From: Macrocystis pyrifera
Lineage: Eukaryota; Sar; Phaeophyceae; Laminariales; Laminariaceae
Direction of reading: 5' to 3'
Length of the DNA: 64,000 bases
NCBI GenBank assembly: GCA_031763025.1
Contig: JASSKH010000003.1
Coordinates: 9,127,078 to 9,191,077, forward strand
The first letter of the stretch is position 1; each line of letters opens with the position of its first letter. Shown one piece after another: positions 13,093 through 45,077 of this stretch. The notes under the pieces were generated by a model that saw only the letters and a program-made list of their open reading frames with translations, was not told the origin of the DNA and made no database searches. Both the position numbers and the translations under genes were made by a program.

Positions 13093-14859
13093 AATACCGC
13101 AGGGGATGTGGCAGACAATAAAAAAATCGTGCTAAAGAAGACAAAACACCACTTTACTTACAAACTCAGAGTGAGACTAAGAACCAAGGGAAAACCTTAT
13201 TTGGAGATTTTTCCAGCAAGAAGTTATATATAGTTCGGAGGCTGCTGACCGGTTTGCGCAGAACGAAAATTGAATAGGGTGTTTTCGTCGGTACACTTAT
13301 CCAAAATATGATGTCTCTCCGGCACGCGCTTTATCAATTTTTATCAATTTTTAAATACTAACTGCATTGGCATGAATTTAAGATCTTCTCGGAAAACGAG
13401 AACGGATGGGTGTCGATTTGCAAAAATTTGCAAGTACGTGGTATGCTGTATACCAATCTCGTATACGATGGATGAGCGCGGTGCGCTGTGTACCCGAATC
13501 AAACGTTGCTGCTGTTGTCGTGGTGTTCCTGAATGTGCGGCTTGATACACAGCGCTGCGGCGAGCCCTCCAAAAAAAGGCACCGCGCCGAACCCGACATC
13601 AGCACAGCAAAGCAGCAGACAGAGTGCATACAGTAAATAAACCTTCTGGCGGCCTGCGTTTCATCGCTTCTCCGTGCCCTGCCGCTCTCCCAACACGTAG
13701 CAGCAAGGAACAAAAACAAGCAGTCAGAAACGACACGGCAAGATGCTGCACCTGCTGTATGTACGTGTGTACTCGTACTTTAACCCTAATAAAGTAGGTT
13801 TCGTGGTACCAAGGTTCCAGGTACCGGTATATGATCACGATAGAAGAGCGCGGCTTCGGACACACTACTACGCACGAAAACACGAGACAGAGAGGGAGGC
13901 AGGAGAACCAGCAGAGAGAAAGACAAGCGTACGTGATCCTCAGAGGAGCTGCATCCGGCGACCACAGCTAGACGTGCGTCGCCTGTCTCGTCAGAGCTGG
14001 CCGAGGAAGAGTTTTCCGCAGCCACATCTCTGCACACAGCTATAGCTAGCTGCTGCTGCTGCTGTTGCTACGGGTCTTGTAAACAGCAAGGTCAACGAGC
14101 AAAAAAGGCGCAATAGCGCAGGGAATCCGCCGTTTCCACATCACCAGCCCTGTCCCCAACCGTGACATATGGCTCAGACCGCACGCCTATCGCACGGGGG
14201 CCGTCTCGACACGTGGAGGTCAAACGATGTCGCGAGGCAACGACGCAAGGGCGTGTGGTCACATGCCTCAGGTGGTCAGCCAGCTCCGCGCCTACACAGT
14301 ATTGTTTCGGGTGTGCTTGACCAACCACGGAGGCTCGGGGAGATGTAGACCAACCGTCTAACGTGGTCGTTGTCGTTTTGGGCTCCATGCTCCATGTATA
14401 TTTTTCTGGCTCTCTCTATGTATATTTGCCTTTCAAATATACATAACGCGGCCATATTTGAGTAAATTTGAGTAATTTGGAAATAGTTATTTGCTATCCG
14501 TCGGTAACGGGGGAATACAAGTGGCCGTTGTAGTCAAATTTTCACAAAGCGCTAACACTCTACTCGTACTATCTGATCTGCTTTTTGATACAGTTTTCAG
14601 CAAGAAATTATTTTGGTTCAGACACACATGTGTATCTCTATTTTGCTTTCGGCACCTGAGCGAAAGGTATACATCAGGCTCCATGCGGGAAATACGAGAG
14701 GATCGGAAGTTGTACACTGCTATACTCGTACAGTACAACAAACAAACGAAGACATTCGTACAAACGCAAGATATCACCGTGCATACGCGTGAAAAGTGAC
14801 CGAAATATCCTATCTGTTACCAGGTATTTATTTATTTTCCGGATGCGGGGAGAACAAAT
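13093..14859. mobile_element. Unclassified 1.8-kb insertion in E1
   Basis: In E2 and E3 the sequence runs directly from CAGCACATACAT...TACAAT into ATATGTTCCC. Here 1.77 kb separates the two halves. The right boundary is the dispersed motif TTTTCCGGATGCGGGGAGAA. No TIR, LTR or coding domain is visible. Small frames inside (13378-13719, 13743-14045, 14092-14388) look random. Confidence 0.5.
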
Positions 14860-16078
14860 ATATGTTCCCCCAAAATAAATGTTTCTTGGTGCACAGGGAA
14901 AATGTCAAGATTTTCACAGATGAATGCTCGAGAACAAATCGTAGTCCGAGTACTGAGAGTACTGGAGTACTGGGGCAAAAATATTGCGAGTACGGAGAAG
15001 ACCCAAATACTGAGAGTAATGAGAGTGTGAGCAGCACCGAACCCCGAGAATACAGGTAAGTATGTACCCGCAGTATAATAAGTAGTATCGAAACGCGAAA
15101 TACTTGGGGTAAAGGCAATACGCGCAGTACAGAACCTCGAGATACTGAGAGTATTCGCAGTACATGTATATAATATACAAGGTTCCCCTCCGGGAGGTGC
15201 CGTATTAATAGGGGAGTGGCACAAGAGCGAAATAATACTCGTAGGAAACCCTGTGCACACTTGTTTTAGAAGTAGCACCTGCACCCACCCATCATTTTAA
15301 CGTGAAGAACACACAACATATTTTTGAGGACAGACTATATTATACTGTTCGCGGAATTAGTGTGGGATAATTACTTACGACAAAAATATTTATTAGGGTA
15401 TCGTAAGTGGAGATATATTGACCCAGCTGACTCGCGGCGATTAATTCGTAGTAAGTACAAAAAAGTTGCGCGAGGTCGAGGTTGCGCCATAATACTTTGT
15501 GACCGGCTTAGTAAGGTACAGCACATACATTCATAGTGGTACTACAATATATATGTTCCCTCAAAATACATCGTTTCTTGTCTTGGTGCTCAGGGTAATA
15601 TCAAGGTTTCACAGGTAAATGCTCGAGAACAAATCGTAGTCCGAGTACTGAGAGTATTGGAGTACTGGCGGCAACACTACTGCGAGTACTGAGAAATACT
15701 GAGAGTAATGAGAGAGTGAGCAATACCGAACCCCGAGAATACAGGTAGGTATGTACCCGCCGAAATAAATACTTGGGGTAAAGGCAATATGCGCAGTACA
15801 GAACCTCGAGATACTGAAAGCATTCGCAGTACATTCATATGTCGAAATACTGCCAGACTGCTTTAAGTGCTCAAGTTGTCTCCAGCGAAAGTAATTTGCT
15901 CCAACTCCCACTCGTGTGGGACTATCTGGGTGTATTTTGCGCCGAACGCTGGGCCTGAGACTTGTCGACACGGTGCACAGACGGTTGAAGTATACTTTAT
16001 ACTCGTGTTAAGGTCTTAGTCCGTTGGGCTAAAGGTAAAAGGTTAACCAATCGCGTACCCAATCTAAGCCTCACAACA

Positions 16079-16090
16079 CTCTCCCCCCCT
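16079..16090 (-). other. Polypurine tract of the miniature LTR element
   Basis: On the minus strand AGGGGGGGAGAG lies directly against the downstream LTR, the position where plus-strand priming occurs in LTR retrotransposons. Confidence 0.75.
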
Positions 16091-16146
16091 GGAATCGAAA
16101 CCCATTGCCATTCGACGCGCAGGTTCGAGTCCTGTCGATGACGCCA
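16091..16146 (+). other. tRNA(Ser)-like 3' half with CCA, forming PBS
   Basis: The plus strand reads as a tRNA 3' half. There is a weak anticodon arm with loop ATCGAAA (anticodon CGA), a variable region, a T arm GCAGG-TTCGAGT-CCTGT, an acceptor strand CGATGAC, G73 and a literal CCA at 16144-16146. Eukaryotic tRNA genes do not encode CCA, so this end was probably copied from a mature tRNA. On the minus strand the last 18 nt (16129-16146, TGGCGTCATCGACAGGAC) is a canonical primer-binding site 2 nt from the LTR. G73 and the T arm suggest tRNA(Ser); this identity is inferred from memory of the family, not aligned. Confidence 0.7.
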
Positions 16147-16698
16147 TTTGTTAAGGTCTTAGTCCGTTGGGCTAAAGGTAAAAGGTTGACCAATCGCGTA
16201 CCCAATCTAAGCCTCATAACACTCGAAGTATACTAGGCATATTGAGGGTATTTCATTACTGCGAGTACTGAGTCTCGCAGAAGCAGCAGTACGAACACTA
16301 CCAACGGACGAAATACTGCTAGACTAGTACTGTACTGGTATACTTGTAGTACCCGCGGTACAGAACCCCGAGATACTTGAAGCATAATCCATGCCAGCAG
16401 CAGTAAGTAGCGAACCCCGCATTAGTGCGAGCCCGAAGAAAGTATACGAAGTAGTATCTACAGAACCTCAAAATACTGCGAGTACTCGCAGTATCTCGAG
16501 TACAAAACCCCCGAAATACTGCGAGTGTACGAAGTACCTACGGTAATAGCAGCAGTATTATCTCGAACATACTTTGCTTTACTCCCAAGTATTCGGAGTA
16601 GCTGGGAAATGTTGAGGTATGAACGCACGCCACACGCAAGCGCGCCCAAACTCTTTAATTTGGGCTAAAACACACAAGTGACATGTACTATATCATAT

Positions 16699-18031
16699 TA
16701 CAAGGTTCCCCTCGGGAGGTGCCGTATGAATAGGGGAGTGGCGCAAGAGCGAAATAATATTCGTATGCAACCCTGCACACTTGTGTAGAAGTAGTACCTG
16801 CATCCACCCATCATTTTAACCTGAAGAACACACAACATATTTTTGGGGACAGACTACTATACTGTTCACGGAATTATAGTGTGGGATCATTACTACAAAA
16901 TAATATAAAATAGGGTAGCGGTAAGTGGATATATCGATCCAGCCGACTCGCGGCGATTAATTCTTAAGTATACAAAAAAATTGCGCGAGGTCGAGGTTGC
17001 GCCATACTTTGTGACCGGTTGAGTAAGGTACAGCACATACATGCTGGTACAATAATATGTTCCCCCAAAATATATGTTTCTTGGTGCTCACGGTAACATC
17101 ATTCACAGATAAATGCTCGAGAGCAAATCGTGGTCCGAGCACTGAGAGTATTGGAGTACTGGCGGCGAAAATATTGCCAGCACTGAGAGGGCCCAAATAC
17201 TGAGAGTAATGAGAGTGAGCAGTACCGAACCCCGATAATACAGGAAAGTATGTGCCCGCAGTAGTAGTATCGAAACACGAAAGACTTGGAGTAAAGGCAA
17301 TATGCGCAGTACAGAACCTCGAGATACTGAGAGTATTTGGAGTACATGCATGATATATAGTCCTCGCAAATGCATGTCTCGAAATACTGCCAGACTGCTT
17401 CAAGTACTCAAATCGTCTCCAGCGAAAGTGGTTTGCTCCAACTCCCACTCGTGTGGGACTATCTGGGTGTGTTTGGTACCGAACGCTGGGCCTGAGAATT
17501 GTCGACGCGGTGCACAGACGGTTGAAGTATACATCATACTCGAAGTATACTGGGCATATTGAGGGTATTTCATTACTGCGAGTACTGACTCTCGCAGAAG
17601 AAACAGCAGTACGAACACTACCAACGGACGAAATACTGCTACTACTGTAGACTAGAATACTTGTAGTACCCGCGGTACTTAACCCCGAGACACTTGAAGC
17701 ACAACAGGGTTGAAGCACAACAGGGGGTATCCACGCCAGCAGCAGTAGCGAACCCCGTATTAGTGCGAGCCCGAAAGTATACGAAGTAGTATCGACAGAA
17801 CCTGACAATACTGCGAGTAATCGCAGTATATATCTCGAGTACAAAACCCCCGAAATACTGCGAGTGTACGAAGTACCTACGATAATAATCAGTATTTTCT
17901 CGAGCATACTTTGTTTTACTCCCAACTATTGCGATTGGGAGTAGCTGTGAAATGTTGAGGTGTGAACGCACGCCACACGTAAGCGGGCCCAAACTCTTGA
18001 CCTTGGGTAAAAACACACAACAAGTAACTTG
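16699..18031 (+). repeat. Repeat unit E, copy 3 (uninterrupted)
   Basis: This is the cleanest A-B-C-D unit (about 1.33 kb). It serves as reference for insertions in E1, E2 and E4. It ends GTAAAAACACACAACAAGTA just before unit F1. Confidence 0.8.
16957..17925 (-). CDS. 322-codon ORF within repeat E3, unknown
   Basis: This frame, antisense to unit E as drawn, is the longest uninterrupted one in the array. It is Ser/Tyr/Thr-rich, with short hydrophobic stretches and no recognisable domain. Parts of the same frame are open in E2 (15609-15971), in block B of E1 (14832-15284) and in E4 (20808-21029), for example around THPDSPTRVGVGANYF, but indels shift frames between blocks. It may be an ancestral element protein or the product of a stop-poor repeat composition. 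There is no start, promoter or polyadenylation evidence. Confidence 0.25.
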   Translation of the reverse strand: MGVKQSMLEKILIIIVGTSYTRSISGVLYSRYILRLLAVLSGSVDTTSYTFGLALIRGSLLLLAWIPPVVLQPCCASSVSGLSTAGTTSILVYSSSSISSVGSVRTAVSSARVSTRSNEIPSICPVYFEYDVYFNRLCTASTILRPSVRYQTHPDSPTRVGVGANHFRWRRFEYLKQSGSISRHAFARTIYHACTPNTLSISRFCTAHIAFTPSLSCFDTTTAGTYFPVLSGFGTAHSHYSQYLGPLSAGNIFAASTPILSVLGPRFALEHLSVNDVTVSTKKHIFWGNILLYQHVCAVPYSTGHKVWRNLDLAQFFCILKN

Positions 18032-19735
18032 CATATCATATTATACGTTCAGAAAAGCAAGGTGGATGAATGTACTGGTACAAAAAAAGTCAGAAGTGGA
18101 AAATAAACACACACAACTTGTATTACAGCAGTATATCATACTATACACTCTGAAAAGCAAATGTGTGAACGAATGTATGATTGTTAATACTACTGTTGTA
18201 GTCCTGGTACAAAAAAAGTCAAAAGTGAAATATAAAAAAAGCGTGGATGGTGCGAATCGAACACGGAAGACGGCAAGAACCTCCTAAACCCAGCCCACAA
18301 CTCTGAAAACGCGTCCTGGGCCGCAAATGAGCGGCCGATTACCCAGACCAGTCCCAACACTGAGCGAGGGGGGGTAGGCAGGACAAACCTCGGAAACTAA
18401 AAATTTTTATCGCGCGCAGTATGAATGTCTACGCTAGAACAGTACTCGTACAACTGGCACGTCGTGTTTTTACGCAATCTAAAACACTTTGCACGATCTC
18501 CTACAGCAGTAGAATGGCTCGTACAGGTGCGACTGCATATACAGCAGTACTGCTGTAGAATGCCACGCGAGGAACGTACGTGTACTGACCCCCTTTCAGG
18601 ATCTATCGGTCAGCAAGGTAGGACACACAGCAATGAGAACTACTGCTGCTGTAAGTATGCTTTGTACGAACGCTGCTGCTGTACGAATAATTTGTGGTAC
18701 ATACAGCAGTACGAACGATTTGTTTTTGTTGTATACTCGAGACGACGAATATATCGATCCGGGGATAATGGGTCACACACTGCGGAAGGTACGTGCATCG
18801 GCCAATGAAGATGGCAACAACAACGAACTACAGTAGTAGTACTGAGCTTCCAGCGCGGATCTTCCACATGCGCATAGTACCCTGCCTGCTGCTGCTGTTG
18901 GCGCACTGTGCTGAGCAAAGCTGGAGCAGTGGCAATGTTGGATCACACACAGCAATAAATAGTTACTGCTGTAGTTCGTGGAGTGGTCAAGTGATCGATC
19001 GAATAAACCAACTAACTGGTGTGATAGCCGCAGTACGATCATGCCATACGCGCAAGGTGTGCCCACTGCTGTTGCTGCTGGGCAGCAGGGCAGCAGGGTT
19101 GTGGTGCTGTAGGAAGCTGGAGGTAAGCGCGCTCTGTGCACTGCTGTGTGTATTGTTCTCTAGGCGGTGGTCCGTGCTCCGTGCAACACAAAAAATATGT
19201 ACAGGGATATACCTGGTATACGTCATCCTGGGTATGTACGGATCAAAAAGTATATGGCAAACGGTGGAATGCGGACTGCAGGCTCCGACAAACGCAACCA
19301 ACCACAGCAACACTGCGCATATGGGCGTGCCGCACACGAACGGCGGGTGGGCGGGGGGGCGGCAACGTTGGGACGTTGGGATCTGTGCATGTTGTCTGTT
19401 GTGCACCTGGTACATGTCTGAGCTGTGTGCTCACACAGCTCGTGAGAGCCTATATAGGGGAGAAAACAGATAGCATGAATGACATGTATGTACCGATACG
19501 TACGTACAAAGTAAGGCCTCTTTACTGAAACCAGGGAAATCGTCTTATCCGCTCCCGCCGGAAAAAAAAAACTTTGAGCGCCCGCCACGCGCTTCAGAGT
19601 GCACGGATCGCGCCGAGACCCAGACCAATGTGTCCGGCAGGGCTTCCCGTGTCCGTGCACTTAGTGTTTTGCCTAAAAGTGCTCGTGCGAAGAGAAAAGT
19701 TGGCAAAAGTACGAAAATTTGACAAATATACGTAT
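18032..19735 (+). repeat. Repeat unit F, copy 1
   Basis: The unit begins CATATCATATTATACGTTCA. It shares with F2 and F3 the blocks TTTACGCAATCTAAAACACT, GCACGATCTCCTACAGCAGT, GGTGTGCCCACTGCTG, CTCTAGGCGGTGGTCCGTGC and AGGGAAATCGTCTTATCC. It carries an extra internal stretch of about 330 bp (18690-19025) and a TRIM-like fragment (18262-18386) absent from the others. A 226-codon plus frame (18793-19473) is Cys/Leu-rich but not conserved as a frame in F2 or F3. Function and class are unknown. Confidence 0.7.
18262..18386 (+). mobile_element. Fragment of TRIM-like family inside F1
   Basis: The sequence from ACCTCCTAAACCC to GGCAGGACAAA is absent from F2 and F3. It resembles 50150-50245, sharing CGGCCGATTACCCAGACCAG versus CCCGATTCCCCAGACCAG and GGGTAGGCAGGACAAA versus GGATCGGCAGGACAAA. 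This links it to the element copies at 48210-48892 and 49585-50345. Confidence 0.5.
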
Positions 19736-20880
19736 ACATATACGTTCAGAAAAGCAAGGTGTGGACGAATGTATTATTATTATTATTTTTTGTTGTAGTA
19801 CTTCTGTTGTAGTCCTGGTACAAAAATAATGAAAAGTGAAATTTTAAAAAAAAAACGTGGATGGTGCGAGACGCACCTCGGAAACGAAAATGTTATCCAG
19901 CGCAGTATAAACGTACTGGTATACGCTAGGACAGTGCTTGTACAACTAACTGGCATGCCATGTTTTTTACGCAATCTAAAACACTTTGCACGATCTCCTA
20001 CAGCAGTAGAGTAGCTTGTACAGGTACGAGTGTATATTCAGCAGTACTGCTGTAAAATGCAACGCGAGGAACGTACGTGTACTGATCCCCTTTCAGCTGG
20101 CTCTAGGATTTATCGCATCGGTCAGCAATGTAGGACACACTGCAATCAGAACTATGCTGTACGTATGTTTTGTACGAACGCTGCTGTACGAATGAGCCGC
20201 AGTACGATCATCCATACGCGCAAGGTGTGCCCACTGCTGCTGCTGGGCAGCAGGGTTGGTTGTGGTGCTGTAGGAAGCTGGAGGTAAGCACGCACTGTGT
20301 ACTGCTGTGGGTATTGTTCTCTAGGCGGTGGTCCGTGCTCCGCGCAACAACCCAAAAAAAAATGTATGTGGATATTATACGTGATCCTGTGGGTACATAC
20401 GGATAACAAAATATATGGCAGACGATGGAATGCGGACGTTAGGCTCTGACAAACACAACCAACCACAGCAACATTGCGCTTATGGGTGTGTCGAACACGC
20501 ACGGCGTGTGGGCGGCAGCGTTGGAACGATGGGATCTGTCTATGTTGTCTGTTGTGTATACCTGGTATATGCCTGAGCTGTGTGCTCACAGCTCATGAGA
20601 GCCGGGGGGAGAAAACAGAGAGCATGACAATGTACCGATACGTACGTACAAAATAAGGCCTCTTACTGACACCAGGGAAATCGTCTTATCCACTCCCACC
20701 GAAAATTTGTTTTTGAGCGCCTGCCACTTCAGAGTGCACGGATCGCACCGACACCTAGACCAATGTGTCCGGCAGGGCTACCCGTGTCCATGTACTTCCT
20801 GTTTTGCCTAAAAGTGCTCGTGCGAAGAGAAAAGTTGGTAAAAGTACGAAAAATTGACAAATATACGTATACATATGTTC
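19736..20880 (+). repeat. Repeat unit F, copy 2
   Basis: F2 follows F1 head to tail. It lacks the 330-bp extra stretch and the TRIM-like fragment of F1. It ends in AAAGTTGGTAAAAGTACGAA followed by ATACGTATACATATG. Confidence 0.75.
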
Positions 20881-21479
20881 CTCGTAAATGCGTATTTTCT
20901 CGAAATACTGCCAAACTGCTTTAAGTGCTCAAGTTGTCTCCAGCAAAAGTAGTTTGCTCCAACTCCCACTCGTGTGGGACTATCTGGGTGTGTTTTGTGC
21001 CGAACGCCGAGCATGTCGACACGGTGCACAGACGGTTCAAGGATACTTCATGCTCGAACTATACTGGGCATTACTACTGCGAGTACTGAGTCTCGCAGAA
21101 ACAGCAGTACGAACACTACCAACGCACCGAATACTGCTAGACTTGTATAGTTGTAGTACCCGCGGTACAGAACCCCGAGATACATTAAGCACAACAGGCG
21201 GTGTCCATGCCAGCAGCAGTAGCGAGCCCCGCATTAGTGCGAGCCCGAAAGTGTACACAGTAGTATCTACCGAACCTCAATATACTGCGAGTACTCGCAG
21301 TATCTCGAGTACAAAAATCCCGAAATAATACTGCGAGTATACGAAGTACCTACGGTAATAGCAGTATTTTCTCGAACATACTTTGCTTTACTCCCAAGTA
21401 TTGGGAGTAGCTGTGAAATGTTGAGGTATGAACGCTCGCCACACGCAAGCGCGCCCAAACTCTTTAATTTAGGCTAAAA
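20881..21479 (+). repeat. Repeat unit E, copy 4 (blocks C and D)
   Basis: Only blocks C and D are present. The unit breaks at CTAAAA (21479) where the 7.1-kb LTR element begins. Its last bases, AAAACACACAAGTAACATG, resume at 28578-28596 on the far side. This proves the insertion point and order of events. Confidence 0.8.
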
Positions 21480-21952
21480 TGTTACAGAGTCGAGCGGTGC
21501 GCGTGTCATGCATGATGGTGTAATCTCGTCGGGCTCTCCGACCGAGATAGCTTATATTCCTCGAAAGCTGCTCAGATATACCCACCTCCAAAACATCACG
21601 TATTAATTCGTTCTCAGAACAAACAGGGCCGTTGGGCCGTCCGTCCCACATGCACACACTGAAGCTCTTTCAGTTCGATGCAAAGACTGCCACCTGCATT
21701 CCCGTCGTTCCACCCCGCTTGCGGAACATACGCCTGAGCCAAGTCCTACTTGTCTCAGTCGGTACTCCTCTGGTGTAGGGGGGCACTGCCGGCGGCAAGA
21801 TGAGCTATACAGGAAGCTGAAGGGGTGGAAAAGGGTTGTGACCGTCTGCTCACATCCCCCAGTCTCCGGGTTCAATTCGCATTTTCCCCTTTTGCCTAAA
21901 TGCCGTGTCTACTTTTGGAAACCCCTCGGATCCTTGGATTACCACCGTAACA
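21480..21952 (-). repeat. 3' LTR of the 7.1-kb element
   Basis: Direct repeat partner of 28104-28577, with TG...CA ends. Upstream on the minus strand lies CTGGGGAGGA, the polypurine tract (21953-21962). Confidence 0.85.
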
Positions 21953-22479
21953 TCCTCCCCAGCTGGTTTAGCCGGATAAGGCAAGCCACGCGATATCCTA
22001 GACGGTGGACCCAAGGTATTCTATGCCCGCCAAACTGAGGGAAGCAAACCCGGCTATTTTTTTTTTCCGATAGGGAAGGCCTTCCCCCAATACACACACT
22101 ACATGCGTCGCCTTGTTCTCTTAACGCGGCGTACCCTGTTACGTCCCCTCCAACTACGTTCCTGAATGCTCGCTTGACTCCTAAACTCCCTATGTACAGT
22201 TCCCCCTAAACACTATTGTGCCAATCGATATGAAAGATCACAATCGTCGCGCCTCCGAGGTGAAAACTAGGCAAAAACAGAATGTCAGAGATCGCAAGGA
22301 ACCCCGTTCCTTCGGACAATAGTCTCCTATTGCCCCCTACTCCCGCCATAGATACACAGATCGCGACGGTAATGCGAGATGACAGGGTCTTTTTTGCGTG
22401 ATCAACATAGCAATCACCTGGTGCCTACCAAAAAAAAATAACTCAAAAATGAACTCCTGCAAATTCGTAGTGCTGTTGC

Positions 22480-23770
22480 CGAGCTAAGTGGGGTGGTTTT
22501 TCCAAAGTGCCGCTGGCCTAGAACAACGCCCCCCAGCGGCATCCCGCTCATCCTCCCCCGCTTAGAACAAGCGCTCCCAGAATCGCCCCCCCGGAGCAAT
22601 AGTGTAAGACGCTCCTCGTCCATCAACCTCCCCGAAGCTCCGAAGCCGACACCACCAAGACAGGTTAGCCGGTGTTGCGCGCGGCTGTACTTGAAGATGG
22701 ACCCCGGACGAGCTGCCCGATCTTCGGAACGGCGCGCCCGCGGCCCCACCCTCGCCTTCTCACTCCGAATCCCCTCATTGGACGCCTCAATACAGCGAGT
22801 AAAGTCGTAGACCTGCCCGAGTGGCCCCGCGTGCCCCTTTCCGCCCTCGACCGTCTGACTTTCGTGCCGATCGCGAACTTTCTCAGCGCCTCCTTTCTAC
22901 TCAGCGTGGGGCGTCTTCTCGCCCCCTCGTCTCGGGCTGCGGGGCGGCTCCGCTCGCTGCTCGGATCGTACAAGTTCCACCACGCGTGAAACGTGTCCAA
23001 CTGCGGCGGAGTGAAGCTTGTCCAGTGACTCCGCCTCCGAGACCCAGTGACGCCTCCCCGTCGAGGTACCCGCCGCGGTACCCCCATCTCGCGATCCCGG
23101 TAGCGCTGACCACCCTCCTGACCAGTGACTCCGCCTCCGAGACCCAGTGACGCCTCCCCGTCGAGGTACCCGCCGCGGTACCCCCATCTCGCGACCTCGG
23201 TAGCGCTGACCACCCTCCTGTCTAGTAGCGTGTACACTGATTAGTGCTGCTATAGTCGAGTGCCCTCCGAGCCCCAGGTCCGCTCCCCACGCCATCTGCG
23301 CGAATTGGGGGGTCCAAACGAGCTACCCCAGGGTACTGCCGTGGTCATCCCACGGCCCGTTGGCGACACCGCTGACGATGCCTGCTTCTCTGCACCGCCG
23401 CCCCCTCTTGGACGCTGCCCGTCCACCACCGTCGACGGCGAACGCGCCGACGCCGTGCGGAAAAGAGGGGCCGGGGCCACCGCCCGAGGTGCCCGCACTA
23501 CTCGAGTCACGTGGTCGGGGCTACACGGACGGCGCGCACGCCCGTGTCGATCACCGAAGCGCCATCGCTGGCGTGGCCATCCCTACCGTGGCAAGCCCCG
23601 AGCATGACGGCAAGCCTGTCGTGAAACGCGAGGGTGCCCAGCTGTCTGTCAGTCAAGCCCCCTTCCCCAGATGTCCAACGGGAGACGGCATGTCGTGAAA
23701 CGTGAGGGTGCCCAGCTGTCTGTCAGTCAGGCCCCCTTCCCCAGATGTCTGAAGGGAGACTGTGCCGAGG
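22480..23770. other. GC-rich island inside the 7.1-kb element
   Basis: This 1.3-kb segment is strikingly more GC-rich than the rest of the element. It contains two exact-period tandem duplications: 100 bp at 23023-23122/23123-23222 and 74 bp at 23617-23690/23691-23764. Overlapping frames up to 190 codons (minus 22665-23237) are Arg/Gly/Pro-rich with no known domain. It may be captured host sequence. Confidence 0.5.
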
Positions 23771-25349
23771 TGAGTCTGAGGGATGTTGTCAACAAGGGCT
23801 CCAAGCAGCGAAGGCGCAGGGGGGGGGCGGGCGTGGTCGCAGCATGAGTGGTTTCTGCGAGCATGGTTCGGTGGCGTGCGGCGTGATCATGATTCTCATG
23901 ATAAGTTTCTGGGCGGTCGAGTCGATTAAGAGTAAGGCGATTCATGTCATGAAAAGTCTTGTTGCTGTAGCTATCAGAGTAAAACCGCCGCTCGGTTGTC
24001 CCGGCTACATATTCTTGAACTCGCTAATCTAACCATACTCGCCACCCCCCTTTGTGCACTACCTACGCAAGGGAGAGCACGAACACGCGGTATCGGTTGT
24101 AAAACACCTACATATGTGGACTGGATACCAACCATGATCATGTCTCGACCAACTACTAATTTCTCGACCCTGTAAACCCATCCCTGAACCGGAGTCATTC
24201 AGCCCGTATGAGCGCGAGAACATTGCAACACCACCAAAACACTAAATACGGGTCGGTACATCTGGAAGGGTTTGCACCTCATGCAGGTACCGTGTTGAAA
24301 ATAGTATAAAAAAAAACATCGCGCGCTACAGGGGAACAATACGATTACCGTCCATTGGGCAGTTCCGGCGGGGTGAGGCAACACTGCATTGCAAAACGTG
24401 GCTGCCACGGTTACAGGATGTGGCACAAAGAGAACTGGAGAGCCTGACAGTCAGGTCCACGCAACTGGCGAGCCTAACAGTCAGGCCCAGGCTATAAGAC
24501 ACATATCAGGGCAATATTTTCCTTGATGTGTCCTTCACCCGCCCAAAAATGAAGAGAAAAGAACATAGTGATAAGGAACAACAATAACCACGATGGACAC
24601 GCACGCACAGCGGACACGGGACGGCAGTGAACTGCCGGACACACGCGACGGAGTGCGGGCGCCAGTAAAGGTCACAGCCAGTGCGGTCGGATGCACGGGC
24701 AAGCGGGTTTGCAGCAAACAAATACACAAGCAAACAAACGACCAAACAAACAACAAAAGCGAACAGAACAAACAAGAACAAACAGAGGAGCAAACAAGCA
24801 AACGGACGAACGACATAAAACTAAACGACAAACAGGCAACAAGCCCCGTGGCAAGGCTCAGACCTAGAGGGACCTGGTTGCTGTCTCCTTTTAGCATGAG
24901 CGACAGCAACAGCGGTCCCAATAAGTGCAGGCCCGACCATTTTGGGCATTCACCCCGCCTCAAGAAGGAAACAAGCGAGACACAAACAAAAGAAAACGAA
25001 ACAAACTAACCAAAGCAAAACAAAACTTTGCTGCCCGCACAGTATGCTGAAAGCGGCGGGGCATATCAGCCGAACATTTCAGTATTCCAGAGACCTTGTT
25101 GCTATCTCTCTGCCGGATGGAGACAGCAACAATGGTCCCCCAGGCTGAGACAAAGCCATACATTATGCATGCACCCACAAGATAAACGAAGTAAAATTGT
25201 AGAGAGCTTACCAACAGACCGTGTAGGTAGGACAGGCGCAGACCTCGTGGAAGTTCGTATCTGTCTCCCACGACGGGTAAAGACACAGCACCACTCCCAA
25301 GAGGCACAGACCAATCTCTTCTATACAATAACAAACAGGCACAGGCAGG

Positions 25350-25610
25350 ACAAGCACATACCCTGTGGAGGCTGGGTTCAAGACCATAGCCATGTCCCCA
25401 CAAGGCACTAACCCATCCCAACAACAGGTACAGGTAGGACAGGCACAGACCTTGTGGAGGCTCGGTTCAAGGCCATAGCCATGTCCCCACAAGGCACAGA
25501 CCCATCCCAACAACAGGTACAGGTAGGACAGGCACAGACCTTGTGGAGGTTCGGTTCAAGACCATAACTATGTCCCCACAAGGCACAGACCCATCTCCAA
25601 TAAAAACAAA
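25350..25610. repeat. Tandem repeat, about 87-bp period
   Basis: Three close copies of a unit contain GGACAGGCACAGACC, GTGGAGG, GGTTCAAG and CATGTCCCCACAAGGCA. More diverged units flank it at about 25220-25330 and 25620-25760. It lies inside the 7.1-kb element; no product is inferred. Confidence 0.75.
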
Positions 25611-26894
25611 ACGCATGCCAGATAGGTAGGATAGGCGCAGACCTCGTGGAAGCTCGTGGTTGTCTCCCACGACTGAAAATACATCACTACCATTCCCACC
25701 AGGTACAGGCCCATCTCTTTTAATCCATCATAATGCAAGCACAGGTAGGACTGGCACAGACCCCGTGTAAGCTTAGTTGACGAAACTATTCGCTTTCCAC
25801 GAGGCACTGGCCTATCTCTCCTTTCTGACACCATGAGGGCATAAAGGTATAACGCGAAAAACAATAGGAAACAAAACACAACATGAAACAAACAAAACCC
25901 AAAGCAACCACAACACATACCAGGTGCCGGGTAAAATACTATTATTGAAGACGTACTCTCCGCGGAGCGCCTCATCTCGATGCAATTCTTGGCGTCCCTA
26001 GAAAACGTGAGCCTCAAGTTGTTTCTGTCAGGTTCTTATTCATGTGGTGGGTCTATACCGCTGTATACTTGAGTACTAATTAACCAGTACTTTACCAAGG
26101 TATTTTCGTGTCCTGACCACGGCGATGAGTTGAATGTGAGAACCACGACAACAACTTAGAAAAACAAAACAGCAGGACTACTATTTTAATACTGCTGTAG
26201 TACAACAGCACAGCAGCAAGTATCGTATGATACTGCTGTACGTATCCTCGTGTGCATAAAATCCAGAGAGATCTCAGGGTCCCGCACAGTGAAAAAACAA
26301 AACAAAGTGGGATGCGTAGAACGATCCCCAGTGCGTGCAAACGCGTGTCTCGGACTAGATCGAACACGCGACTAACAAGTTATCCATGCGTGAGTACATC
26401 GTTGAGTGTTCGTTAGTCGGTACATTATTACCAATGCAGTACTACGTAGCCAGTTGTTGAAATTTCGTGCAGTATGCCGGTATGTTCGAGACAAGTGCAA
26501 CACTGGACGTTGTTGCAAATTGCGCAACATGCCGGTAAGTTTCTAACTAGACCGCACATGCGGCTAACGAGTTCTGACAACGAAAGTTGGAAAACCACGC
26601 CGAGTCTTATTAATACTACTGCTGTACAGTCGATGCGTATCCGGACGAACCCCGAGCATGACTGCCTGCGTCTCTACATGACCGTCAAACATCGAATCAC
26701 TAAAACGAGCAAGCGACATCGACCCGTCCTTGCAGCCGTATGATACCTAAGTACCGAGATAAGGTATCTAGCGTGCTACGGGTTCCTGTAGGACTGCAAG
26801 CGCTTCTGTATGGGAGTGGGCATCAAGTATGGATACGAAATATGCAGCTTGTGGACGGGGTTAGCGACGTTCGACGTTCATGCGGTAGGTGGTG

Positions 26895-27206
26895 CCGTCA
26901 GCAGCGGATCTTATTCGTCTCTTCTCATCCCCCTGCTTCTCTCTGCGGGCCCTCTGGTGAGAAAACCGGCGGTACGGTCTCCTCTCACCTCCCTGCCCTG
27001 TCCCCTCGGTCCTTCGCTGGCGTACGGAGGGGGCTGCTCTCATGCCTGCGCCGTCAGCAGCGGATCTTATTCGTCTCTTCTCATCCCCCTGCTTCTCTCT
27101 GCGGGCCCTCTGGCGAGAAAACCGGCGGTACGGTCTCCTCTCACCTCCCTGCCCTGTCCCCTCGGTCCTTCGCTGGCGTACGGAGGGGGCTGCTCTCATG
27201 CCTCGT
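26895..27206. repeat. Two-copy 156-bp tandem duplication
   Basis: Units 26895-27050 and 27051-27206 are nearly identical, each with CGTCAGCAGCGGATCTTATT and GGTACGGTCTCCTCTCACC. The repeat keeps frames open on both strands (for example minus 26861-27199), which explains those ORFs without a gene. Confidence 0.85.
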
Positions 27207-28079
27207 GTGCGAAGATTGTCTGCGTTGTTGCTGGTTAGCGTAATATGTACTTTTTGTATAAATTGCAGTAGTTTTTAATACGGTGCCTATATCATTAATG
27301 AGCGTGTTGTTCACTGCTCGGGTGCTGTCTTCTTCTCATGCTTTATACCCGGTATATATGATTTAGTATGATCCGTATGGGGGACATTATTTCATCTAGC
27401 GGGGCGTCGCGACTTGCCCCCCCTCCCTCGCCTGAGTTTGCAAAGCTCACATGTGACGAGGGGTGGGCGCTGCGCACTAAAAAGAGACTATGTGCCTCGG
27501 CAGACTGCAGGATACCTCCATCCACTAAACAGACCTGCGTTGAAAACATGAAAGGAGTGTGTGGGGCTACTACACTCACGCATACCGAAGCTCAGCAGAC
27601 GACGGACTCTGCTAAACGAGGCGTAAGCCACCCCCCCTCACGGGGGGCGGAGTCAGCTCTCGTTCACCCACACTAAACCTCCCACGGCGTGCAGCCGCAA
27701 GACCCACACGGTGTCCGCCCGCGGTCCCGCTTGGGGACCGTGGTGCGAACCGATCGTGACTTACCGAAGGTTCCTCTGAACGACGGACTCAGTCACGACC
27801 TCCCCGTTGCACGTACCGTCGAACTCTTTGCTCAAAGCAAGGGTTCACTACTGCTGTTTACGCTGTGGTTACTCTCCGTGTCTATGAGCATATTAGTCTA
27901 GGATTCGGCATAGGGAACCAAGAACAACCTCGCCCCCGTCTGAATCAATCAGAGAGGGCTTGGCGCCGAAACACGGCGCAGAAACATGATGCGATACACG
28001 GGATGCCGGAAAAATCCATCGACCAGCATCCCGTCGGACGCGTGTGAGATGTGCGTGAGACTACTACACTCGTACCCCA

Positions 28080-28103
28080 GTTCGATTCTCGGATTGGACA
28101 CCA
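28080..28103 (-). other. Primer-binding site of the 7.1-kb element
   Basis: The plus strand here reads GTTCGATTCTCGG then ATTGGACACCA, which is a tRNA T loop, T-stem 3' strand, acceptor strand, discriminator A and CCA. On the minus strand TGGTGTCCAATCCGAGAA directly follows the LTR. Complementarity extends past the T loop, longer than the usual 18 nt. The primer tRNA is not identified; its acceptor 5' strand should be GTCCAAT. Confidence 0.7.
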
Positions 28104-28577
28104 TGTTATAGAGTCGAGCGGTGCGCGTGTCATGCATGATGGCGTAATCTCGTCGGGCTCTCCGGCCGAGATAGCTTATATTCCTCGAAAGCTGCTCAGA
28201 TATACCCACCTCCAAAACATCACGTATTAATTCGTTCTCAGAACAAACAGGGCCGTTGGGCCGTCCGTCCCACATGCACACACTCAAGCTCTTTCAGTTC
28301 GATGCAAAGACTGCCACCTGCATTCCCATCGTTCCACCCCGCTTGCGGAACATACGCCTGAGCCATCTCCTACTTGTCTCAGTCGGTACTCCTCTGGTGT
28401 AGGGGGGCACTGCCGACGGCAAGATGAGCTATATAGGAAGCTGAAGGGGTGGAAAAGGGTTGTGACCGTCTGCTCACATTCTCCCAGTCTCCGGGTTCAA
28501 TTCGCATTTTTCCCTTTTGCCTAAATGCCGTGTCTACTTTTGGAAACCCCTCGGATCCTTGGATTACCACCGTAACG
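28104..28577 (-). repeat. 5' LTR of the 7.1-kb element
   Basis: Same sequence as 21480-21952 apart from roughly a dozen changes. Its terminal A is replaced by G at 28577. On the minus strand this copy comes first and should carry the promoter. Confidence 0.85.
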
Positions 28578-28596
28578 AAAACACACAAGTAACATG

Positions 28597-30912
28597 TTGT
28601 TGTTGTCTTCGCATTAAATCGTTCTTTCTAACCAGCTTCATCAGTGCACCCAGTGTCCGTCCTGATTCCTTATCCTAGAGAGATACTGATTCCGTAGTCA
28701 CAGACTGTGGGACAGAGGAAGACCAAAAATAAGAAATAATCGCAAACCCAAGCGTCAAGCAATTGAAATGTCAGCGTACCGGGTACGAGAAACACAACAA
28801 CACAACAGGACCAAAAAATAAGAGCAAAAAGACAATAAAAAAAATGAAATGAAAACAGAATACAAACGACGCAAGGACTTCAGAAAGGCTGCCAGACGGA
28901 CAGCATACGTACTCAGGAAGGACAGATATCTGCTGCGCGGATGAAGCGACACGAAAGAGAAGGAGCTACAGGCAACAGTCTATATGAGCTAGCCGAACCG
29001 ATACCTATCCACCCGATCTATCATTTCGTTTCTGCATTCATTGACAGCTGTATCAGTACGGCTGCCCTTCCCCCCTCCCCCCCTCCCGTTGTCGCCGTTC
29101 TTGGCGTCCTCAGCTGTGTGGCGTAGCCAGCTCCTCTGTGCCTCGTCCCTGTGCCACCTCGCCATGAAACAGTCCGCCACGTCGACGACCCCCCGGTACC
29201 ACTTCCCGCTCTTCTTAGCCGCCCTCGGCCATAACACTGTTTCCACTCCGAACAGCAGAGGGGAGCTTTCCGTGGACCCCTCGGTGGCTTGGAAAACCCT
29301 GAGGTCGTCCGCTAGACATTGGGCCCAGGTCTTTTCCGGTCGGCCTGGTCCTGGGTTCTCCCCACCAGCCATCGTCCCAAACATCACCCGGCGAGTCAGC
29401 CACTCATTGGTCGCCCGCTGTACGGCCCCCGCAAAGAGGAGGCGTCTTTTACGGATGGTCGTCTCAACGCTCTCGCATTGTGCTTTTTTTAGGGCCTTGG
29501 CGTACGACATGAGGTGGTCAGTGCGTTGCCGGCGCTGGAAGCCAATGATCCGTAGGAGGAGTTTGTGGTGTGCCGTTCGGAGTTCAGCGAAGTGCTCCTG
29601 ACCAAGAGTCCACGTCACGCACCCGTACAGCAGGGTCTCCATGTCTCCATCACCTCGGCCTTTAGCGTGCGCACTTTTAGAGTGAACGGGGCATCCTCCA
29701 TATCATACAGTTCCCGTTTGAACCGATTGTAACATGCCTATGCGAGTCGGATCCGTCGTGTGATCTCTGGCATAACGTCAGCGCTTGCGACAACAAGACC
29801 GCTCTGACACAAAAGCTGCGTCGTCCGTCTATATCTCTGTCCCGCCGTTTCGATGACGAGTGGTGAGGTCTGGGGTGCCTGATTCGGTGTCCGCAGCAGC
29901 ATGGTCTCCTTTTCTTTTCGGATACGGTGAGGCCTGCTGCTTCGAAAACGGTCACAATGACGGTCATCATCTTCGCAAGGCCTTCCGCCGACTTAGACAC
30001 AATGCCTGCATCGTCCGCGAACAGCATGTCCCATACTGCCCTCCGTACGCAAGTTAGTGGGTCAACCTTCACCCCGTCCTCGCCGAGGTCCTCCTCGAGG
30101 TGAACCATGTTCCTCAAAATATCTGGGTCTTCACTGAAGCGTACCAGCACGGCGTGTATCACAGCAGCGAAGAAGACATTGAACAGAAGTGGTGACAAGA
30201 CACATCCTTGCCGCAGCCCCTGAGTGACGTCGAACCATTCCGAGTGCTCGCCGTCATCCGCACGCACGCGGGCTCGCATGCCTTCGTGGAATTGGCGGAT
30301 AACGGTTAGCATCTTCTCTGGTACACCGAAGCGTGCGAGCACCACCCACAGCAGCTCACAGTCGACGGAGTCATATGCTTTCTGCAGGTCGATGAAGCAC
30401 ATGTACAGGGGTTTTTTTCTAGCTCGTCCGAGTTCTTGCAGTCGGCGCACGACGAACAGCATGTCGACCGTTGATCGTGCTGGGCGAAAACCGCACTGTT
30501 CCTCGGGAAGTATCCCTTCGGCCTCGCAGTAGTTGCTGAGGCGGGACGCGACCAATTTTCAGCAAAACCTTGCCTGAATGGGCAACAAGCGAAATCCCCC
30601 GGTAATTGTTGCAATCAGAGCGATCCTTCTTTTTATGGAGGACCTTAATGATCGCATATTTCCATTGCTGGGGGACGTTGCCCGTTCTTCACACGTTGAC
30701 AAGTAAGTTGTGACAGTACCGGATGAATTCGGGGTGGTCGATTTTCAGTAACTCGGCCGGAAGGGAGTCTGGTCCCACCGCTTTCCAGTTTGGCATACCC
30801 TTAATTACCGCCGTCATATTATCCATGGTCGGTTCATCTCCAAGCGATGGTGCCAACGGCCGTTGTGGAAATAGAGCGCTGATGGTTGGGTCAAGCTTAG
30901 AAGATTGCGTGG
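28597..30912 (-). pseudogene. 5'-truncated LINE with reverse transcriptase, frameshifted
   Basis: Minus-strand frames in order are 30916-30689 (KAVGPDSLPAELLK, the start of non-LTR RT), about 30614-30556 (NNYRGIS), 30555-29677 (RT core) and 29642-28989 (C-terminal region). RT landmarks are [39 protein letters not shown] and the catalytic [11 protein letters not shown]. The C-terminal frame has LLYGCVTWTLG and HHKLLLRIIG, typical of the region after RT in RTE/CR1-like and related LINEs. At least two frameshifts make it dead. The 3' end (28597) carries a short AAC-type tail. The element separates the end of unit E4 from F3, which are adjacent in E3-F1. Confidence 0.85.
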
Positions 30913-37505: not shown

Positions 37506-37792
37506 TGTTCGATGCACTCACTGATATGATAGGCCAAGCCTGAGTCAGTTCATAGAAGCCCCTCCAGGGCATATATATTATCGCTTAGAATACACAAGAC
37601 AAGGAAGAAAGGGGGGGAGAACATGAAGTACACACGCAAGAAGTAGAACAAGAAGAAGAAATGAGAAAGCGGCGGACAAGATACGTCCCCACCCGCTGAC
37701 CGTTCCACACAGAACACGCAGATTTTCTGTGTGGAACTCCCAAATACCGTTACACATGAATCCGTACACCAAGTACGTGAGCACTCCGAACA
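37506..37792 (-). repeat. 3' LTR of the copia element
   Basis: This 287-bp partner of 45078-45368 is preceded on the minus strand by the purine-rich GAGATCAGAGGGGC (37793-37806), a plausible polypurine tract. Confidence 0.9.
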
Positions 37793-37806
37793 GCCCCTCT
37801 GATCTC

Positions 37807-38857
37807 TACTTGGTGAATGGGATAACCAAACATCGCTCACGATAAAGTACCATGCCATGATGATAAACCACGATCATCCAAAGTCCAAATCCAAGGTATT
37901 GTACTCAAATATTGATAAGTATATGTCAAGACCACCAATGCCTCAAATCAGAATATCGCGAACACAAATATCAAAGTCTCAAATCTCACAAAGAAAGAAA
38001 CTTAATCTTCATATCTCAGAAAATAGTACCACAAGAACAGCTGCTCAAAACCCGAAAAATGATAAATCGGAGAAAAACAAAAATCAACTCCTCAAATTTC
38101 GACTGTGCAGAAAGATCAAGCCCGCCAAGCCCAGAAAAGCCCACAAAGCAACTCCTCAAAATCTCAGAAAACAATCAATCGAATCCTTGCACCATTTATA
38201 TAGTACTGCAGTCCCTTTTTGGGTTAGGCTCTCCATCTCAATCAAACACCAATCCGATATAGCCTCTCTACAGGGGACACACTAAATCCAGTCAAATGGC
38301 AACGAAAGCCCCGACTTTCGTCTCTGAAACAACGCCCCAGTTTAGTGCGGTCGACTTAGTATACTACAGATTTCAATTCCGCATTACGTACGTAGATACG
38401 TATTCAGTATAATAATGTTATATAGTAGTTCCAAATATTTCAGCTTTCCTGCTACGTACAGCAGTCTTCCAGCCCCAACGGAACGGGATAAAAAGCATCA
38501 CTCATGAATCACGATCGACTCCTCAACTCAAACCAGAATGGTACATAGTGGCATGTCGGATTCACTCCCTCGTCCCCACAAGAAAAATTAAATAACAAAT
38601 CATAGGACCGCATGAAGTCAGAGCTTCAAACCCCAAAACAATTGAAGAATAGTGACAAAAATAATTATCAGAGTGTCAAATCACCCCCAAAAAACAATTA
38701 ACTCTTCAGATCTCAGCAATAAATTATCATGACCTCCAAGCTCAATAAAATCCATAAACTATCTTCCCAAATCTCATGAAATTTGTGATAATTTCCTCGA
38801 ATTCCCTCAAATCACAGGAAGATACAAAAATCGGCCGGGTCAGACATAAAAATCGAC
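37807..38857. other. Non-coding 3' region of copia element
   Basis: A/T-rich sequence with many CTCAAAT and ATCTCA-type words lies between RNase H and the 3' LTR. The plus frame 37857-38285 (142 codons) is Lys/Ser-rich and looks like composition only. Confidence 0.5.
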
Positions 38858-39640
38858 TCACAAACAAAACAAAACAAAACAAACAAACAAATATATACTC
38901 ATGTTCATGATGAAGTTCCTGTGGAAACGGAAAGCGTCTTTCGGAAGGGGTTTCGTCAAGAAGTCGGCATGTTCGTATTCCGGCCTCATATGCGTGATTT
39001 CAAACTCTCCCTTTTCGACAAGTTCTCGGAGGAAGTGGTGGCGGACATCTATGTGCTTCGAGTTAGAGTTCGTCACAGGGTTGACCGCTATTTGGATCAC
39101 ACCCTTGTTGTCCTCAAAAACCTGGATGCACGGATCCCCAAAATCAGGCAACAGGAAACGCCACACTGACCGTAGAAAAAGAGCCTCCTTGAAACCCTCT
39201 GCCATCGCAACGTCCTCTGCTTCACTCGTGGAGAGTGTGGAAGTCTTCTGCGTCCTAGAAATCCATTGAATGGCCGCACCCCCACACATCACGGCTGCAC
39301 CCGAGACAGACTTCCTCCTAGTGTCTCGGGGGGTATAGGCTGCGTCTGCATAAACCACCAACTCTAATCCACTGCCCCTCTGGAAAGTAATACCGTAGCT
39401 ACTTGTCACCTTCAGATACTCCAAAATCCCTCTCGCAGCCAACCAGTGTTTGAGTTTGGGGGCATGCATATACCTCGCGACCGCCCTTACGGCATTTGAG
39501 ATATCAGGTCTCGTCTGGTTAGAAAGCCACAACAAACTGCCTACTAGTTCACGATACGGCCAGTCACCAGTGGGCTCCTCCTCGTCAAACACCTCCAGGA
39601 AAATATCAGGCGAAAGTGGGGTGTCCCTACCAGCTGTCAC
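38858..39640 (-). pseudogene. Copia RNase H / connection domain
   Basis: The open 260-codon frame begins within the RT-RNase H connection (YRELVGSLLWLSNQTRPDIS). It contains the Ty1-type RNase H with VVYADAAYTP, RKSVSGAAVMCGGAAIQW and STLSTSEAEDVAMAEG, then FEDNKGVIQIA and KHIDVRHHFLRE. The acidic residues (Asp, Glu, Asp) expected for catalysis are visible. It ends with a hydrophobic stretch not typical of the family. It is separated from RT by frameshifts, so it is listed as part of a dead polyprotein. Confidence 0.85.
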
Positions 39641-39774
39641 GCCAAATTGCTTGACCGTCTTCTCCGCGAAAGATTTCTGCGAAATTGTCAGTAAACCCGC
39701 GACCTTGTCTCTGGAATAGTGGCAACCGGCATACCATCGCAGCTCACCAAGGTTATTGATGGGGACTACGCGGT

Positions 39775-40500
39775 TCAGGTCCTTGCAAAAACGGTCACAT
39801 CTCTCCTTACGGACCTACCGCAAAAATGTCGTCGACGTGAACCACAGCAATGATGGAAACAGACCCCGCCTCGATTAATCGAAAACACACACGGATCTGC
39901 GAGGCTCTGTTCAAAGCTAAGACTCTTCAGGCGGGTGACCAAGTGTCTATGCCAGGATCTCGACGCCTGTTTCAAGCCGTATAGGCTACGATTCAAGCGC
40001 ATTATTTTACCGCTCAGATCGCCACAGCCCTGTGGCATCCGCATCAAAACGAGTTCCTGTAGTGCGGCCTGGACAAACGCTTGTTGTACATCGAAATGGC
40101 ATAAATCTAACTGTAACTCGCAGGCTATCGCAGCCATCATACGGATACATGACGCGGCAGGGGCGGGGGCAAAAGTCTCATAGTAATCAACTCCGGGGCG
40201 TTGGCTAGATTCTCTCGCCACTAGTCGCGCTTTCGCCTTCATTACCTTACCATGCTCACCTGCCTTCCAAGTGAACACCCATTTGGCCGATACCACGTTC
40301 CCTCCCTTTTGTTACTAAGCATCCCCGAAAGTCCCAGCTCCCTCGAGTCCGGCAATCTCCGTCTCCATTGCATGGGACCAGTTCGCATGGTATGGCGAGA
40401 GCATCGCTCCCTGGTAGGTCGCGGGTTCCGAAAGTTGTCCCGCGTCACATGTTGGCAGAGCAGGGGCTGGTTGGTTGGGCGGGCGCTGGTTGAAAAGTGC
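39775..40500 (-). pseudogene. Copia reverse transcriptase, frameshifted
   Basis: The RVT_2-type domain starts in the frame ending at 40315 (NWSHAMETEIAGLEGAGTF). It continues in 40296-39775 with KWVFTWKAGEHGKVMKAKAR, RPGVDYYETFAPAP and DVQQAFVQAALQE, then LNRSLYGLKQASRSWHRHL. The catalytic box appears one frame over (VVHVDDIFAVG, about 39825-39855), showing a second shift. The protein would copy element RNA into cDNA. Confidence 0.85.
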
Positions 40501-40777
40501 GTGGTCAGCTGGCTGCGATGTACCAGTAGACGCCTGGTGGTACGCCCTCGTCCTTGCGCGCGTCCGCCCCGGTTGGAGAAGCTCGTTGTCCGGGGGACCC
40601 TCGTCGTCCTCGATCTGAGGGTTCTCGGCCCCCGGTGGGGATGACGGTGACATCACCCCCGGCGGCGGCGGCATCTCCGGTGGCGCCGGCATCATCACCG
40701 GCGGCATCCCCACTTGAAGCGGCGCCGTCGTCATCGCCCGTGTCCTAGCGCGCGTCCGCCCCAGTTGAAAGCGATCG

Positions 40778-42160
40778 CTATCCCGGGGGCCCTCGTCGTC
40801 CTCGACGTCGTGGTTTTCGGCCCCCGGTGGGGATGACGGTGACGTCACCCCCGGCGGCGGCGGCACCCCCGACATCGCGCGTCGACGGTGGCGGCACCTC
40901 CGGTGGCGCTGGCGTCATCGCTGGCGTCGGCGGTACCGCCGGTGGTGCCAGTGACATCATCGGTGGTATCCCCGGTGACACAGTCGCCAGCTCCGGTGGT
41001 AAATACCTGATGTGCAGATCGGCCTCCCACGGCTCCGCCACGGAGTCCTTCCTCGCCTGAGGCGCAGCCTCGATGATCGGCTTGCGCTCCACCTCCCAGG
41101 TGACGTCCCGCGAGTTGCTCGTACGCCCGCATGCCATGACCACCTTGACGCAGTCGCGCGGATGGTTTCTCCCCCTGTTGAGGTAAAAACACCGTTCGGC
41201 CTTGGGGTCAGACTTGTGGGTGCGGTGGATACGGTGGGATCCGGGCTGCATGAAAGCGAGTGTGTTGGGCGGCGGCAGTGTCCCAAAAAATGACTCGTGC
41301 GGCGACTTGAAATGGGCGTTCACCGACGTCGCCGTGGTGTTCAGGCAGTCGTTCATGTAGATGACTGCTTCCACCCAGTAGCGGTCCAGGTTCGGGAGCT
41401 GCCCAGGGAACAGCCGGGGGGCCTCAAGGCAAGCGGCCATACCGCCTTCCTGGATGAGGCCGAGTCCACGTTCGACCACGCCGTTGTGTTTCGGTCCGTC
41501 GACCCCGGTGTGCTCGTGTCGGATTTTCTCATTGGCGCATAAGTTCGCGAAGAGTGCGTTGACGAACTCTGTGCCGTTGTCCGTCCGGAAACACTCGACG
41601 GCTCCGCCGACGTCAGCCAGGATTTTTCGGGTCGCCGCGGTCACGTCGGTGGCGCTCTTGCTCTTGAGGGGGTACAGCCATCCCATGCGTGTCGCGTCAT
41701 CCTTGAACTGGATGAGGTACAGAGCCCCCCCAGCAGACGCGATATTCCTGGGGCCGGCAAGGTCAACAAAAACGCGCTACAGGGGGAGTGCCTTCCGAGA
41801 CGATGTAGTCGTAGGTATAGACACACGCCTGCCTTTCGCCTGCACACATCTACTGCAAGTGACCAGAGTACCAGTGAGCTTGACGCCTTGCTGTTTGGCC
41901 GTCTCGCGCAAAAGGCCCTCGTGGGCGTGGGCGTTGCACACGTGAAAGACGTTAACATCCACCTCCTTGAAACGTCTAATGCCGGGGACGAGCACGGCAG
42001 CAGCAATCGCCGGGCGGAACGCGGGGGGGTGCGGGGGAAGGCATTCTTCCGGGGGATTAGCTGACGATGGCGCTGGCTCACTACGTTCCGGCACTGTCGC
42101 AGGGTGTGTGTGAGGGGTTGCTACCGCTATCGTTGGTTCTATCGCTACCGGGGGGTCTAC
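40778..42160 (-). pseudogene. Copia integrase, frameshifted
   Basis: The N-terminal zinc-binding HHCC region is recognisable at about 41830-41950 (VNVFHVCNAHAHEG and VTCSRCVQAK). The catalytic core has the first Asp region in another frame near 41700-41780, then FRTDNGTEFVN and HNGVVERGLG for the second Asp and Glu of the D,D-35-E triad (41686-41400). A Pro-rich tail follows, with repeated PPGAEN and RTRARTRA. The shift between HHCC and core breaks the frame. Integrase inserts element DNA and makes the 5-bp duplication seen at the ends. Confidence 0.8.
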
Positions 42161-42388
42161 CGCTACCATCACCCCTGGCGACAGCGGCATAGCAGATATT
42201 CCCGGCGTCCTCACCGGTTGTAACGTCACAGGCACCGGCGCATGGGGGGGAGGGGGGGGGGGGTTGCAAAACCGTTGTACCATCCATCGCTACCGGCGGG
42301 CCTACCGCTACCATCACCCCCAGCGACAGCGGCATGGCAGATACTCCCGGCGTCCTCACCGGGTGTACCGTCATAGGCACCGGTGCAT

Positions 42389-42433
<45 letters not shown>

Positions 42434-44978: not shown

Positions 44979-45077
44979 CCGAAAAACTGAAAATCTCTCG
45001 CTCGTCCTCGAACGGGGAGTTGCTCTCCCGGCGTAGCCCCAACCAGCAAGTGCGTCCAATTGGAACAGACGCTAGCG

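Follow-up and report, generated by a model that had tools for sequence, protein, structure and literature searches.

The 216-bp insertion at positions 16006-16221 of the window (the whole 64-kb stretch of DNA analysed here) is, by its structure, a non-autonomous miniature LTR retrotransposon of the TRIM/SMART type, known here from one insertion. Apart from 2 nt, its interior is taken up entirely by a tRNA-like part and a polypurine tract (PPT). The explanation that we consider best, with a probability of roughly 0.55, is a TRIM/SMART-kind element on the minus strand that would be primed by tRNA-Ser(CGA) and provided with reverse transcriptase and integrase in trans, and whose interior would consist of an over-extended PBS and the PPT. 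The initial annotation had likewise described an element reduced to LTR, PBS and PPT, and our analysis supports that description.

Structure and orientation of the 216-bp element

The insertion consists of two direct LTRs around a 70-bp interior and has no coding capacity. Each LTR is 73 bp long (16006-16078 and 16149-16221), starts with TG and ends with CA; the two copies are identical except for transitions at 2 of the 73 positions. The insertion is flanked by a CTCG target duplication (16002-16005 on the left and 16222-16225 on the right). Two sister repeats lack the element, each with a single CTCG running across the site, and they match the flanks of the element at 80-88% identity in the longer BLAST matches. 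These empty sites show that we are dealing with a genuine insertion, which occurred after the sister repeats had separated. The repeats with their 2 differences, the duplication and both empty sites had been reported in the initial annotation, and all were confirmed with exact coordinates. A self-BLAST of the window gave 52 direct pairs, and we tested the 19 with at least 85% identity and at least 50 nt. Two of these 19 combined TG..CA ends with a matching 4-6 bp duplication, namely the 216-bp element and a copia-type element described below. Short-word BLAST found no further copy of the LTR or of the interior in the 64-kb window, the other matches being 10-11 nt long. The element is a well-formed single insertion with an unusual interior. 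The surrounding region (14854-21479) is made up of diverged sister repeats, with 80-88% identity in the matches seen and with many GAGTACTG-like motifs, and a second LTR element of 7.1 kb is inserted there as well.

The element had been described on the plus strand, but its sense strand is the minus strand. A PBS usually opens with TGG shortly downstream of the 5' LTR, and a PPT usually adjoins the 3' LTR as a run of purines. On the minus strand, TGG begins 2 bases past the 5' LTR and G7AGAG abuts the 3' LTR; on the plus strand there is no TGG beside the left LTR and no purine run beside the right one, and we rejected that orientation. The sense order is therefore the 5' LTR (16149-16221), a 2-nt AA spacer (16147-16148), the putative over-extended PBS of up to 57 nt, which starts with TGGCGTCATCGACAGGAC (16090-16146; its first 18 nt, 16129-16146, form the conventional PBS), the 11-nt PPT GGGGGGGAGAG (16079-16089) and the 3' LTR (16006-16078). 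The earlier three-part division of the interior stands, with its lengths of 2 + 56 + 12 nt corrected to 2 + up to 57 + 11 nt. Given this orientation, what reads as tRNA on the plus strand represents the complement of a PBS of great length. In this arrangement the element has the direct LTRs, TG..CA ends, 4-6 bp duplication, PBS by the 5' LTR and PPT by the 3' LTR of an LTR retrotransposon, and at 216 bp with a 70-bp interior it is as short and non-coding as TRIM/SMART elements are.

The tRNA-like interior

Read on the plus strand with a tRNA numbering that we assigned ourselves, 16090-16146 comprises positions 28-31 (TGGA), an anticodon loop ATCGAAA with the anticodon CGA, positions 39-43 (CCCAT), a 13-nt variable region, a T arm (GCAGG-TTCGAGT-CCTGT), an acceptor strand (CGATGAC), G73 and CCA. 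All five pairs of the T arm can form (5/5, including one G-U), while 31 and 39 do not match and pairing in the variable stem is poor, suggesting that the anticodon part has diverged or is different in the host. The long variable region, the anticodon CGA and G73 together presumably denote a serine tRNA. For alignment we used three tRNA-Ser(CGA) sequences (human, Arabidopsis and yeast), all foreign and possibly different from that of the host. The local alignment of the whole interior beat 2000 of 2000 mononucleotide shuffles with each of these three references; for the stretch upstream of the T arm alone, the score was reached by 4 (human), 87 (Arabidopsis) and 376 (yeast) of 5000 shuffles. 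On these results, the T arm, the acceptor strand and CCA can be considered securely tRNA-derived by sequence, and the anticodon and variable part probably so. The proposal of a serine-type tRNA with a literal CCA is thus borne out by the anticodon, G73 and the alignments. The initial annotation had also made its reading depend on the interior aligning to a nuclear tRNA beyond the T arm, and with the foreign tRNAs that were used here it does so.

Measured against the tRNA consensus and the foreign reference tRNAs, the complementarity beside the PBS passes position 58, the usual stop at A58, as had been claimed. It appears to extend past 18 nt across the T arm and, with less firm support, as far as the anticodon arm, for a length of up to 57 nt (52 nt when counted from U33). 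The PBS is of the plain tRNA type, so that the self-priming suggested earlier is unsupported, and nothing else points to it. A scan of both strands of the 64 kb for GTTCRANTC followed by CCA 12 nt later, with at most one mismatch, found 3 sites, and both perfect ones adjoin LTRs. ARAGORN called no tRNA in the 216-bp element and Rfam gave no match even at E up to 1 on 15990-16240, both programs looking mainly for whole tRNAs. The full patterns had 0 matches in collections of viral contigs and genome contigs, which are not expected to contain this eukaryote. A shorter T-arm pattern found 65 stretches in viral contigs, many of them tRNA-gene-like by eye, and the acceptor sequence of the element occurred in 0 of these 65.

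Origin of the element and candidate helpers

We propose that the element would be mobilised by the reverse transcriptase and integrase of an LTR element that makes 4-bp target duplications, acting in trans, with tRNA-Ser(CGA) priming minus-strand synthesis on the element RNA. Plus-strand strong-stop synthesis would at some point have passed m1A58 of the primer tRNA and proceeded as far as the anticodon arm. The cDNA end, now too long, would then have been extended on the polypurine end of the minus strand, so that all coding sequence would have been lost and LTR-PBS-PPT-LTR would have arisen in one step. A single jump is favoured over more gradual routes because no nucleotide separates the tRNA part from the PPT. 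We tentatively regard such read-through with a template jump onto the polypurine end as the most likely origin. Once present, the long PBS could pair with plus-strand products ending anywhere in the 3' half of the tRNA, and since products of many lengths would pair, read-through would cease to be an obstacle to the second strand transfer. During retroviral plus-strand strong-stop synthesis, the tRNA is copied while still attached, in most cases up to a halt before m1A58, and extra sequence should interfere with the second transfer (PMC1785368). Minor retroviral products reach positions 55, 54 and 37, and lentiviruses and spumaviruses carry an over-extension sequence by the PBS (PMC13191261); tRNA-derived inserts of 63 and 65 nt in place of a hairpin have also been described (recounted in PMC12220202). 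Against read-through stand the sequenced proviruses of HIV-1 made with A58U tRNA, reported as lacking tRNA sequence beyond A58 (PMC1785368), and the statement that products ending at position 37 are inactive as templates (PMC13191261).

Two other histories were considered. The insertion may be a one-off with the same chemistry: an autonomous element with 73-bp LTRs may have given rise to one aberrant cDNA (LTR, read-through tRNA copy, PPT, LTR) that integrated once and never moved again, so that there would be no family. The single copy within the 64-kb window and the aberrant retroviral cDNAs with copied tRNA on record (PMC12220202) speak for it, and nothing of weight speaks against it, the 2 LTR differences merely meaning that the insertion is not brand new; we consider it a real, if lesser, possibility. 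Alternatively, a TRIM may have arisen stepwise from an ordinary PBS with a short over-extension that lengthened over many cycles, the internal region being deleted separately. The 7.1-kb element, with at least 24 nt of tRNA-type complementarity, is a possible intermediate of such a series, but the direct junction of the tRNA-like part with the PPT is more simply explained by the single jump, and we find the stepwise course unlikely.

By coincidence, parts of this structure might also be imitated by a tRNA-derived SINE or by a tRNA pseudogene fragment with a tandem duplication around it, given that tRNA pseudogenes and SINEs are common in eukaryotes. The TG..CA ends and the 4-bp duplication stand against this, as do the CCA placed 2 nt from one LTR and the purine tract against the other, and on the strength of the two empty sister sites we rejected a tandem duplication or SINE; a coincidental origin is hardly credible. 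The read-through origin that we favour bears on which tRNA modifications halt reverse transcriptases: both window elements with a primer site from a tRNA 3' end (2 of 2, the 216-bp and the 7.1-kb element) are complementary past A58.

The 7.1-kb element lies at 21480-28577 on the minus strand, with repeats that are 97.5% identical and an AAAA duplication (21476-21479 and 28578-28581). One of its LTRs ends with CG, not CA, and for this reason it failed the automatic TG..CA test. An empty site is found in a sister repeat near 16660. Its PBS, TGGTGTCCAATCCGAGAATCGAAC, comprises 24 nt of tRNA type and runs past A58 to nt 53; beyond this point, in our reading, the T stem is matched at nucleotides 52, 50 and 49 but not at 51. 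Like the 216-bp element, it has TGTTA..TAACA-like termini and a target duplication of 4 bp, yet no ORF of at least 200 aa is listed between its LTRs (the longest among the 30 stop-to-stop frames listed over the element is 191 aa), and we rejected it as an autonomous helper. A 154-bp tandem pair lies within it at 26894-27203.

The copia-type element at 37506-45368, also on the minus strand, has an ATACC duplication and LTRs of 287 and 291 bp, with a gag match above and an integrase match below the Pfam cut-off. No TGG directly follows its 5' LTR, and the primer site may thus be one for an internal part of a tRNA. With its 5-bp duplication and different LTRs, it is unlikely to be the helper. No helper of the 216-bp element was found within the 64-kb window. 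Ectocarpus has a chromodomain LTR element with 4-bp duplications (PMC11541908), and should the host be a brown alga, the helper might be an element of this type. At 29677-30555 on the minus strand there is a fragment of a reverse transcriptase (Pfam RVT_1), which may come from a non-LTR element.

Possible promoter signals and comparison with known elements

The sense strand of the element also carries strings that resemble the internal promoter of Pol III, for which we assume the consensus strings TRGCNNARYGG (box A) and GGTTCRANTCC (box B). The putative box A, TAGCCCAACGG, matches its consensus perfectly at 16164-16174 in the 5' LTR, with a second copy at 16021-16031 in the 3' LTR. The putative box B, GTTTCGATTCC (16091-16101), lies 73 nt downstream with one mismatch and is formed by the complement of the anticodon arm. 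A TTTT at 16037-16040 in the 3' LTR could serve as a Pol III terminator; it has a copy at 16180-16183 in the 5' LTR and is the only TTTT on the sense strand of each LTR (LTR position 39-42). On both strands of the 64 kb, the strict box A occurs at 3 sites, 2 of them in the LTRs of this element, and box B with at most one mismatch at 13, of which 2 are in the 216-bp element, one per strand. The only pair of a strict box A and a box B 25-110 nt apart in the window is the one inside the element. Among shuffled LTRs, 0.15% had the strict box A on the sense strand (0.31% on either strand) and 2.5% had the looser TRGYNNARNNG (8.9% on either strand), and 1.1% of shuffled interiors had box B with at most one mismatch. 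The consensus strings are assumed and the strict form of box A was picked after inspection of the sequence, so that we take these matches as a lead only, a hint of a Pol III promoter split between the LTR (box A) and the tRNA-derived part (box B). On the plus strand, the T arm contains a perfect box B, and the nearest box A, TGGGCTAAAGG, has one mismatch to the loose form. It is conceivable, though we think it rather improbable, that one copied tRNA stretch would serve both as the PBS and, through the complement of the anticodon arm, as box B next to the box A of the LTR. A single accident of read-through would then have equipped a new parasite with its priming signal and with some of its transcription signals, in a genome in which reverse transcriptases would routinely pass A58.

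Among known elements, the closest likeness is with SMART and TRIM elements such as FRetro129 (292 bp, 85-bp LTRs, 5-bp duplications; PMC3281118) and CcaRetroS9 (233 bp, 52-bp LTRs; PMC4717578, where 233 bp is also given as the smallest TRIM across the 48 plant genomes surveyed), which are similarly tiny and non-coding and have two short LTRs, a target duplication, a PBS and a PPT. In contrast to these two, which are present in many copies, the element described here has 216 bp, a 4-bp duplication and an interior that is almost all tRNA complement. Helenus and TRIMp3 are miniature LTR elements as well; they contain sequence related to tRNAs and may have a Pol III promoter, and animal Helenus elements have 4-bp duplications (PMC10886601). 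In Helenus, however, both boxes are located in a tRNA-like LTR that is described as having no complementarity to its PBS (PMC10886601), whereas here the tRNA part is the PBS itself, with box A in the LTR and the imperfect sense-strand box B in the interior; Helenus LTRs retain GGTTC in box B, and the same site here reads GTTTC. In the over-extension sequence of lentiviruses and spumaviruses, which also lies beside the PBS, complementarity with the primer tRNA likewise goes beyond A58, but this sequence is used by products that end in the T loop (55, 54), while the complementarity here would reach up to the anticodon arm (PMC13191261). A circle of MMLV with a tRNA between the LTRs likewise places reverse-transcribed tRNA next to LTR sequence, though that aberrant cDNA is unintegrated, and the element here is integrated with a target duplication and a PPT (recounted in PMC12220202). 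A retrozyme was rejected, as Rfam gave neither a hammerhead ribozyme nor any other match at E up to 1 over 15990-16240.

An LTR element with a PBS from the tRNA 3' end to the anticodon loop was not encountered among the open-licence matches listed, as judged by titles and the openings of abstracts. In one large plant survey the PBS was sought as a perfect match of at least 12 nt to tRNA 3' ends (PMC6317226), a rule that does not by itself report over-length. The Ectocarpus LTR elements reported range from 3.9 to 14.5 kb, and in the available part of that report no TRIM is named and the word 'tRNA' occurs 0 times (PMC12477816). The origins of TRIMs are only partly known: a plant survey from 2016 called earlier knowledge of their origin and transposition ambiguous and reported 11 large partner elements (PMC4717578). 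An element composed of LTRs, an over-long PBS and a PPT could preserve in its sequence the traces of a primer read-through and of the template jump after it, and would offer a concrete and testable route to such elements. Elsewhere in the window, at 53601-57299 on the plus strand, lies a 1232-aa ORF with LNR (Notch) repeats and Chlamydia polymorphic-membrane-protein repeats.
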